Assembly: GCA_019044685.2 (NCBI GenBank)
Contig: JAGTXX020000011.1
Location: 1,550,001-1,614,000, forward strand
DNA from: Nannochloris sp. 'desiccata'
Taxonomy: Eukaryota; Chlorophyta; Trebouxiophyceae; Chlorellales; Chlorellaceae
Direction: 5' to 3'
DNA length: 64,000 nucleotides
The first letter of the stretch is position 1; every line of letters starts with the position of its first letter. The notes under the pieces are model-generated. The model saw only the letters and a program-made list of their open reading frames with translations, was not told the origin of the DNA and made no database searches. Below, one piece after another: positions 49,535 to 54,399 of this stretch. The position numbers were made by a program, and so were the translations under genes.

Positions 49535-50540
49535 ATGGCATCGATCCGCCACCAAAGCATGGTGTTTACACCAAAAGAGGTATGTATATAACCTCATCAA
49601 CTTCCAACATAATCAGTGAAGCCCCTGGAGATATCATTTAACACATGTTCCTATTCTCTTCAGATCGATTTCTTCGCCAAGGATGAATTGGTTACAATAG
49701 TTCCAAATTTCTCCCTCCCCACTGAGGATAGTAACTGTTCTTGTATGATGGTACGTATTCACGTGCATAAATGGGACTTAGCGTGATTTGATTGCCTCTC
49801 CAAAACCCCAACTTGATTTTACTTCTCAACTGACTCAGTGGCTGCTTTGATTTTTTTCTTTGTTATTTTGCAGGGTGACTTCGGTCCATTTCAGCCAAAT
49901 AGAGAATGCCTAGTCCCATTATGGCTAGCTTTAGCACTTTGGAAAAGAAGAAAATGTACAATTAAGGCTCCAGAATGGATGTCAGCAAATTATTTGCAAA
50001 GTAAGAATTTGGTCTTTTGTCGCCATTGCCTCTGCCTGCTATTGTGGAAATAAAAGTAGTTTAAATCTTTTAAATTGCAAACTACTCCTTGTTTTCAAAT
50101 ACTTTCATAATTTATCGTTGCTTCCAGGTGTCCTTGAGCTTGAGAGACAAGACCCTAGTAGTTTCCAACCTCTCCCCTTTCATTACCAAGAAGTTGCCCA
50201 TAGCCTCTTCACTGCTGGCACTCAAGAATCTTTGCCTCGAGAAGTCTTTGGAGACGAACAAGCCAGAGTGCGGGATCTGGTGAATCTAGTACAAAAGACA
50301 CGATATAACAAAATTCTTCAAGGTTTGGGCATGATGTCGGAAGCAGCAGCGGTGAAACTTAATAATCTATCGGCAATGGAGTTGAATGCTGTGAGAGCAT
50401 TCTTCACAGGGGCATTAGATCAATTTCATAGATATAGTAAAATGGGAGATGTGGATGCAGGAATTGCACCTGCGACAGTTGCGGCAGGTGGAGAGCAGCA
50501 AGCGCAGCAGCCTGTGCGCCAACTGCGTCGAGGCGGGTGA
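49535..50540 (+). CDS. PSF2: GINS complex subunit PSF2
   Basis: Exons 49535-49579, 49664-49750, 49874-50000 and 50128-50540, all GT-AG, give 223 residues (animals about 185). The start FTPKEIDFFAKDELVTIVPNF is the conserved GINS A-domain opening. It is followed by GPFQPNRECLVPLWLALALWKRRKC and APEWMSANYL, then the helical B-domain with EVFGDEQARVRDLVNLVQKTRYNKI. PSF2 is one of four GINS subunits that bind MCM2-7 and CDC45 in the replicative helicase. The Gln/Arg/Gly tail is extra. Confidence 0.95.
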
Positions 50541-52256: not shown

Positions 52257-52265
52257 TTGAGGCTC
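52257..52265. repeat. 9-bp direct repeat (left target-site duplication)
   Basis: TTGAGGCTC directly abuts the left terminal inverted repeat and is repeated exactly at 54391-54399 just outside the right one. Confidence 0.88.
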
Positions 52266-52309
52266 GCATCACCGGTCTTTCCTTCTGGCCCGAAATAAGC
52301 TTAAGGGCC
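52266..52309 (+). repeat. Left terminal inverted repeat
   Basis: A 44-base repeat beginning GCATCACCGG and ending AGGGCC, inverted copy of 54347-54390. It lies 100 bases upstream of the ATG of the + strand cargo gene and so could also carry its promoter. The inner edge is a GC-rich palindrome (AAGGGCCCCTT). Confidence 0.88.
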
Positions 52310-52409
52310 CCTTTGGTAGCCTATACTTCATTTCAAGGTTAAATTTTCACATCATTGTTTTTGTAAGACACTAAACTACTTATTTAACCCCGCTGTTCGC
52401 CTTTTACTT

Positions 52410-53813
52410 ATGCCAGAAAGAATCTTTGGCATTACCATCAATGATCAAAGGCTTCTTGAGTCTTTGCAGTTGCTTCCGCATGATGCAAAACGCGAAGAAG
52501 AACTTAGACAGTTGAAACATGGGCCTAAGAGGCTGGAAATATTGCGCTCGGGTATAGAAGTTTCTGAATTGGCTAATGTGATCGGGGTAGCTCCTCAGGG
52601 GCTTACCCACGATTTAATTTCCAGTAAATTCAATCCTAATTATTCTAAAACAGTTCCTTGTTATGGAGAGGAGCATGAACGCGACTCAAAAGAGGCTTTT
52701 CTGGAGTATGCCAAGGTATGATCACCTTCCCCGCTCCGTCTGATCTAATCAAACTTGCTGATACACTGCAATATCACACAGTACTCTCAATTTCCCCTGC
52801 TTCTCGTAGAAGACTAAACAAAGAGTAAAATTATATGCGCCTGGAATTTTTTCAATTAAAGATGCACCGTTTATTTATGCCGCCCCGCATTTTATTCAGA
52901 CGGCACCGACCACCACCTTGCTCTATGTTTTTAATGTGAACAAGGTTCCAGACTCGCTCCCTGCCCACGTGAAAGTTCAGGTAGTTAGGTTATATATCAA
53001 CTAGCTGACCTGGATGTGCTTAGTACTCTTTGTCTGCCATATTTCATCGCTTTTGTGACGCTCTTGCCTTGTTTTGTTCCCACCCGAATGCAGGTGGTTG
53101 CAGCGTTGGCACTTACGGAGGGTCCTGTTTTCTCCAAAACAGGGATGGAACCTACTGCACAGATTTATTTCTGCCCTTCTCAAGGTGATGGTGTCATTTT
53201 TGAAGTTAAATATGGAGATAACGAGCGCATGGAATGGAAAGAAAAGAGAGCAGCAGCGGTCCCGTATTTTCTGCAGAAAATGTTGCCCTACCTTGCAAGA
53301 AGCATCAATATGGGTCAGCTGCCTCCTACTTCCCCAGCTATCTCATCACCACAACCTACACGTACTTATCCTTCTGCTATACAAGCTCCAGCATTAGATC
53401 AAACCCCATCTGTGGCCGTAAATAAAAAGGTGCGGGATCCTACAAAACCCAACCGAACCGGCATAGTACGAGAGATTTTCGATGCTGAGGATGAAGGAGA
53501 CAAAAAGGCAGTAGTTGATTGGGATGGAGAACCAGTGAAACAGCGAAAAGCTAAATATCGCGTCAAAAACCTTGAAGTTATTCCAGTATTAGGCACTTAT
53601 GAGCTGCCTGATGCTGACGGGCAATACGTACAAGTTGCATCTTTTTTAGAGGTTCTAGGCTTCTCAAATTCTGATTTAACCTTTGCTTGGGACGCTCGAT
53701 CTGGGGCAGCCCTGTGGCATCTGCTAATGCGTTTATGCAAAATCTGTCGAGGATCCCCGGTGGCGGTGAAGGCGGACTCTTCGAAAGATACCCGTTTGGG
53801 CTCTAGAGCTTGA
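52410..53813 (+). CDS. Unrecognised cargo protein of the TIR element, with SH3-like segment
   Basis: Exons 52410-52715, 52810-52980 and 53094-53813 with GT-AG introns, all in phase 0, give 398 residues. The N-terminal 230 residues look globular and non-repetitive (MPERIFGITINDQRLLESLQ; FIYAAPHFIQTAPTTTLLYV). After a Pro/Ser linker, about 300-355 resembles an SH3/KOW-like beta domain (TGIVREIFDAED ... KAKYRVKNLEVIP). I recognise no transposase catalytic motif or zinc finger. The last 72 codons overlap the coding region of the antisense gene, so the true C terminus may be shorter. Spliced, continuous frames support a real gene. Whether it moves the element or is captured cargo is unknown. Confidence 0.6.
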
Positions 53814-54091
53814 TTTGAAGCTATAGTAGTACCTCCCACAGCATTAATAACCTTGCTAGTACCCAAATTATTAGAAGAAGGGCCAGCAGAGGTTGTAGGT
53901 AGCTTCTCTAGTGATGGTGCCGTCTGGCCATCAAATGCAGCTGCTTGTTCACCACGCCACAAGTTTCTCACGGACCGCCCAATGCCTGCAATAAATCAAC
54001 CATATTTACTTAAGATTTATCAATGATAATTCAGGCGAAATTAATCAGCGCAAGGCTAGTATTGCATACCTGCCAATGAGATTGAAGCCAT
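53597..54091 (-). CDS. Small unrecognised cargo protein of the TIR element
   Basis: Exons 54091-54070 (7 codons plus one base) and 53985-53597, with an 84-base GT-AG intron, give 136 residues. The product is hydrophilic and probably disordered (Ser/Thr/Ala/Lys), with KRVSFEESAF and a final CTYC pair. Its last 217 coding bases lie antisense to the end of the + strand cargo gene. Splice signals and a start in good position support expression, but the composition leaves room for a spurious call. No family is recognised. Confidence 0.45.
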
Positions 54092-54346
54092 ATTAACCAG
54101 CGCAAATTAAAGATGATTAATGCTACTAAAGTTTGCGTATACTTATATGTATTCGTTGGGAAGTCCGCGATCTGATTGAATCAATCTTGCAGTTAAGATC
54201 TAAAGCATGCGAACAATTTAGTTGCCCATGAATCTAGCAGGGGGACATTACAACCGCTTTGCTGCAAGAAATATAATATCATTGATGATACAATTGAGGT
54301 CTATGCAAATTATTTGTTAAAAAGATAGCGGAATAAGGCTGGAGGA

Positions 54347-54390
54347 GGCCCTAAAGCTTATTTCGGGCCAGAAGGAAAGACCGGTGATGC
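54347..54390 (-). repeat. Right terminal inverted repeat
   Basis: Inverted copy of the left end, 43 of 44 bases identical. Its outer end abuts the 9-bp repeat at 54391. It lies about 255 bases upstream of the minus-strand cargo gene, in the same orientation to that gene as the left repeat is to its own. Confidence 0.88.
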
Positions 54391-54399
54391 TTGAGGCTC
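54391..54399. repeat. 9-bp direct repeat (right target-site duplication)
   Basis: TTGAGGCTC, identical to 52257-52265 and immediately outside the right terminal repeat. Confidence 0.88.

Follow-up and report, generated by a model that had tools for sequence, protein, structure and literature searches.

What kind of mobile element is bounded by near-perfect inverted ends and a duplicated target site, and carries two spliced reading frames that recall no familiar transposase? This question is raised by a locus in a 64-kb stretch of the genome of the green alga Nannochloris sp. 'desiccata' (contig JAGTXX020000011.1, positions 1,550,001 to 1,614,000; 44.8% GC), hereafter referred to as the window. 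A preliminary description had seen here a recent terminal inverted repeat (TIR) transposon with a Mutator-like 9-bp duplication, an assessment which is supported by the present analysis. The element occupies positions 52266-54390 of the window (2,125 bp), its 44-nt inverted ends pair at 43/44 positions (98% complementary), and the two flanking 9-bp copies of TTGAGGCTC match perfectly, confirming both of the signatures on which that description relied. By a simple base-composition estimate, the chance that 64 kb contain an exact inverted pair of 37 bp spaced within 3 kb is ~1.5e-14; the preliminary description had likewise regarded the double signature as not expected by chance. The element is almost certainly non-autonomous, the product of an internal deletion in a two-gene Mutator-like element (MULE), a reading based on its ends, its 9-bp target-site duplication (TSD), its identity to a parent copy encoding both a transposase and a second protein, and the presence of a second family with the same layout.

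The element and its full-length parent

A search of the alga's own genome (one assembly of 21.55 Mb in 18 contigs) with the element identified a full-length parent copy of 4,949 bp at C12:1260855-1265803, flanked by its own 9-bp TSD, TCAACAAAT. The window element is composed of the first 1,371 bp and the last 755 bp of this parent, with 0 mismatches and one base common to both parts; therefore, 2,824 bp have been deleted. The shortening is recent. The minus strand of the parent encodes a spliced 910-residue protein in which PF10551 (MULE) and PF21056 both exceed their cut-offs (PF10551 with 34.6 bits in a whole-genome scan), and which displays the motif D294-D357-C376xxH379-W466-E486 (P0001 numbering), of the D-D-CxxH-W-E type, together with two CxC..CxH motifs; a PDB sequence search with this transposase returned nothing credible. 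Features of the Mutator-like superfamily that are present include a MULE-type DDE transposase in the autonomous copy, 9-bp TSDs (8-11 bp in the superfamily) and TIRs. The plus strand encodes a 461-residue second protein from three exons, convergent to the transposase gene, and this protein matches the annotated Nannochloris sp. 'desiccata' protein P0005 along its entire length with 100% identity.

Both spliced frames previously reported for the window copy were reproduced at their exact lengths with GT-AG splicing, namely 398 residues on the plus strand and 136 residues on the minus strand. The 398-residue frame represents the second protein truncated after approximately residue 340 and continued through the antisense strand of the other gene, and has lost the greater part of the KOW-like domain at the C-terminus (330-391 in the model). 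The 136-residue product is 98% identical to residues 1-125 of the parent transposase frame, and is devoid of a DDE motif because the deletion took that region. The earlier claim that the element carries no known transposase consequently holds to the extent that the window copy retains an N-terminal piece rather than a complete transposase gene, while the 136-residue product is itself the N-terminus of a MULE transposase.

Further copies and a second family

Besides the window element, the genome yielded four copies of this family (family 1) that retain both ends, one of them the parent, and the 9-bp flank differs in every case. This outcome of a check proposed in the preliminary description supports insertion. 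The TSDs of these copies are exact in three cases and match at 8/9 positions in the fourth. The latter copy, at C6:454061-455878 (L010:2062-3879), is a 1,818-bp fold-back of two inverted left parts of 957 and 871 bp, which are 99.9 and 100% identical to the parent, respectively. The copy at C10:368958-370712, with TSD TGCCAGAGG, is 84-87% identical and has stops in both genes. At C6:1367674-1367732 (L012:1175-1233), 59 bp, barely more than two inverted ends, are enclosed by a perfect 9-bp TSD, GGCCAGGTG, and this copy could represent either a mobile unit of near-minimal size or an insertion deleted in place. Pieces of both genes also survive in a degraded relic on C1, at ~316.7-317.2 kb. Separately, an isolated 51-bp piece with 90% identity to exon 1 of the second gene was observed at C9:466367-466417 (L013:1368-1418), with no further element sequence within 3 kb.

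When the transposase and the second protein were used as protein queries, they pointed to six further elements, representing a diverged MULE family (family 2) that has the two-gene layout of family 1 and deletion derivatives of its own. Its full-length copies, of 5,243 bp on C10 and 5,235 bp on C9, are 99.5% identical to each other and possess perfect 58-bp TIRs; relative to its counterpart, the C9 copy exhibits an 8-bp gap within the longest transposase frame and may be broken. The second protein of this family is 100% identical over 99% of its length to an annotated protein of the same alga. Two shortened copies, L044 (C6; L044:2335-5647) and L047 (C1; L047:2837-6148), have a common deletion junction (2357|4286) and different 9-bp duplications (CAGGCAAAC and TACCTACAA), which shows that a deleted copy reached a second site, either by moving or by being copied. 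A separate deletion is represented by L045 (C15), and L046 (C2) is a rearranged copy. Family 2 TSDs are exact in 4/6 elements and match at 8/9 positions in one, while none was found in L045, whose right end is 3 bp short; across both families, 8/11 are exact, 2/11 carry one mismatch and 1/11 (L045) was not found. The identical or near-identical copies of these two-gene MULEs suggest recent activity.

It is established for the Mutator superfamily that elements are excised and inserted by a route which generates such duplications. By analogy, the MULE transposase would bind the 44-bp ends, excise the element and insert it with 9-bp staggered cuts, while the window copy would be mobile only if transposase were supplied in trans. 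The deletion may date from a break or excision whose repair was interrupted or completed by end joining, as the 1-bp overlap at its junction would allow; the corresponding overlaps are 2 bp in L044, none in L045, and 6 or 10 bp (two alignments) in the C6 fold-back. Deletion and fold-back copies would be the expected leftovers of interrupted repair or of end-joining after breaks.

The coordinates of the features within the window copy are listed in Table 1. Upstream of the element, a gene at window positions 49536-50540 may encode a GINS-complex subunit (Psf2-like), and the window returned no Rfam match at gathering scores.

Table 1. Features of the shortened MULE copy, in window positions
Feature	Position	Strand	Basis
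Left TSD, TTGAGGCTC	52257..52265	.	sequence
Left 44-bp TIR	52266..52309	+	same end recurs at other copies
Second (accessory) gene, exon 1	52410..52715	+	splice model; parent protein is annotated P0005
Second gene, exon 2	52810..52980	+	splice model
Second gene, exon 3, up to deletion junction	53094..53636	+	parent residues to ~340 of 461
Out-of-frame tail finishing the 136-residue frame (antisense second-gene DNA)	53597..53635	-	splice model
Internal deletion junction, 1 bp common to both sides, 2,824 bp of parent absent	53636..53636	.	alignment to parent
Transposase exon 2, 5' part only (N-terminus)	53636..53985	-	splice model and comparison with parent
Out-of-frame tail finishing the 398-residue frame (antisense transposase DNA)	53637..53813	+	splice model
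Transposase exon 1 (start codon)	54070..54091	-	splice model
Right 44-bp TIR	54347..54390	-	inverted-repeat pairing
Right TSD, TTGAGGCTC	54391..54399	.	sequence

The second protein

The second protein of family 2 is predicted, from its modelled structure, to contain a RecE/lambda-exonuclease-like domain with the YqaJ/lambda-exonuclease fold and a KOW domain, the exonuclease domain being recognisable at 2.3e-13. The ancestry of the protein seems to lie in a virus-type DNA exonuclease. For family 1 the exonuclease link is indirect and runs, at the level of sequence, through profile homology with the family 2 protein (E 1.2e-11, between profiles that hold 2 and 3 sequences). Two relatives from the databases, P0008 (source jgi) and P0009 (source lgn), possess the letters SLDY...VEIK, which we take, by alignment, to be the D...ExK catalytic triad; both are matched by phrog_434 (4.3e-5 and 2.8e-6), and P0009 also by YqaJ (0.038). 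The corresponding letters in family 2 are SLNY...VQMK (N128, Q140, K142) in 5/5 copies that keep the region, which is missing from L046, while APHF...YVFN is aligned at these positions in family 1. Judged by these alignments, the catalytic D...ExK is lost in both algal families, with D changed to N and E to Q in family 2.

Despite this predicted loss, the gene looks constrained. Comparison of the parent with the decayed, stop-containing C10 copy, a single pair, yields a ratio of non-synonymous to synonymous substitution rates (dN/dS) of 0.23 over 207 codons of the second gene (~first 215 residues), as against 0.46 over 127 codons of the transposase N-terminus. As the C10 copy has decayed, constraint before decay was probably stronger. 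The second protein could assist transposition, or repair at the donor site, by binding DNA or DNA ends, and we give such a helper role an even chance. We lean slightly towards a fuller proposal, in which this lineage of two-gene MULEs has a dedicated second protein with a lambda-exonuclease/RecE fold and KOW/Tudor-type domains, convergent with the ISL2EU elements on the kind of partner, and in which the helper, its triad lost in the alga, would bind DNA ends at the donor break or insertion site with no cutting.

Apart from the small size of the two profiles and the single decayed pair behind the dN/dS values, several results weigh against the interpretation given above. Evidence for transposition is the anatomy of the copies only, and no movement has been observed. 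An empty site with a single TTGAGGCTC, which the preliminary description had suggested as a sign of insertion, was not found in the one assembly, searched with 1-kb flanks: the left flank returned its own locus only, and the right flank its own locus plus two 68-69 bp matches at 88%. The Pfam SWIM domain, a zinc finger often present in the MuDR group, scores 13.2 against a cut-off of 19.6 in the parent transposase; it also falls below the cut-off in family 2 and exceeds it in the relatives P0003 and P0004. With respect to the family 2 second protein, the best PF09588 (YqaJ) score is 17.5 against a cut-off of 22, the best TIGR03033 score is 26.5 against a curated cut-off of 68, exon 2 alone has no Pfam match, and the VIA alignments extend into residues 53-90, a weak part of the model. 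The family 1 protein has no phrog_434 or YqaJ match and reaches only 0.011 with TIGR03033; its model (predicted local distance difference test, pLDDT, 47.9, and <50 over residues 1-151 and 154-264) is too poor over residues 1-264 to bear on the fold, and its VIA rows are of KOW/Tudor type only, with no exonuclease. Furthermore, P0008 has the D...ExK letters, yet no YqaJ match at E 5. PDB sequence searches returned no exonuclease for the family 2 second protein (best E 1.5) or for P0008, and a PDB search with profile A1 returned SPT5 (0.039) and ribosomal L24/L26 KOW proteins, again with no exonuclease.

No relatives were obtained from IMG/VR with P0001, A1 and P0004 (scans seeded by a few peptide patterns), from prokaryote genomes with P0003, or from PLSDB with P0005. 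A Pfam match of the second protein to FLQE3_permease was rejected as noise (E 0.0065 to 0.1, <17 bits against a cut-off of 60).

Alternative explanations

The MULE-like ends, the 9-bp duplication and the incomplete transposase of the window copy would also suit a Pack-MULE, i.e., host gene fragments captured between MULE ends, and a gene-capturing non-autonomous element had indeed been proposed. The parent, however, contains the whole window interior as its own transposase and second gene, and the matches in the alga's own genome to the interior and to the two proteins, whose counts are lower bounds, fall on copies or relics of the element and on a single 51-bp piece (90% identity). Capture is thus very improbable: the element is non-autonomous, as proposed, but its genes are the cut-short ends of the parent's own two. 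The other proposal, that the 398-residue protein is a new class of transposase, could appeal to its position between good TIRs and to a family 2 relative with a nuclease-like fold. It is nonetheless so improbable as to be nearly negligible, as the parent already encodes an ordinary MULE transposase, the 398-residue frame is cut short and finishes out of frame, and the nuclease residues are absent from both algal families.

The main rival concerns the second protein, which might instead be a transcription or chromatin factor (KOW/Tudor-like) with an anti-silencing or expression-driving activity, its exonuclease-like domain being a relic without a role. The exonuclease domain of family 2 is, however, still recognisable, and the low dN/dS comes from the N-terminal part of the protein; we consider this explanation unlikely, albeit one to be taken seriously.

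Relationship to known systems

In maize MuDR, the mudrA and mudrB genes are convergent and deletion derivatives are driven in trans. The algal elements share with maize MuDR and other MULEs a MULE transposase, TIRs, a 9-bp duplication and a second open reading frame (ORF; mudrB in MuDR) beside the transposase, while their second protein is lambda-exonuclease/KOW-like. According to one paper (PMC6446971), MULEs generate 8-11 bp duplications, MuDR carries mudrA/mudrB, and TIRs are commonly hundreds of bp long, in contrast to the algal TIRs of 44 and 58 bp, although a table in that paper also lists groups with ends this short. The same paper describes Mutyl of Yarrowia and Hiun of Arabidopsis as MULEs with extra ORFs, whose products differ from the algal protein, mutB being DNA-binding, vanC anti-silencing and vanB of unknown function (PMC6446971); the word exonuclease is absent from the text of PMC6446971.

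For ISL2EU, a further paper (PMC4482050) describes a second ORF of the YqaJ type whose role is unknown. ISL2EU, of the PHIS superfamily, has a transposase with DDE, helix-turn-helix and THAP domains and the target A|AT|T, whereas the algal element pairs a MULE transposase with 9-bp duplications and has neither the PIF/Harbinger-type transposase nor the AT target site that mark ISL2EU; moreover, the algal second proteins do not retain the D...ExK residues. In the open-access literature, judged by titles, abstract starts and term counts, none of the papers listed concerns a MULE accompanied by YqaJ or a lambda exonuclease; YqaJ and MULE occurred together as whole words in one paper only, which describes a clam genome and lists both domains as expanded.

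On its own, the window element is an ordinary shortened, non-autonomous MULE derivative. MULEs with second ORFs (mudrB, mutB, vanB/vanC) and a YqaJ second ORF in ISL2EU were already known, while a lambda-exonuclease-like partner on a MULE, not seen among the open-access papers listed, appears to be new. Followed to its parent, the element points to compact MULEs with two genes in a ~21.6-Mb genome, and the 59-bp copy with its 9-bp duplication hints at how little end sequence may suffice. If the second protein is a retired exonuclease serving transposition, these elements would offer a testable system in which to study the function of such second proteins, both in MULEs (mudrB) and in ISL2EU (YqaJ).
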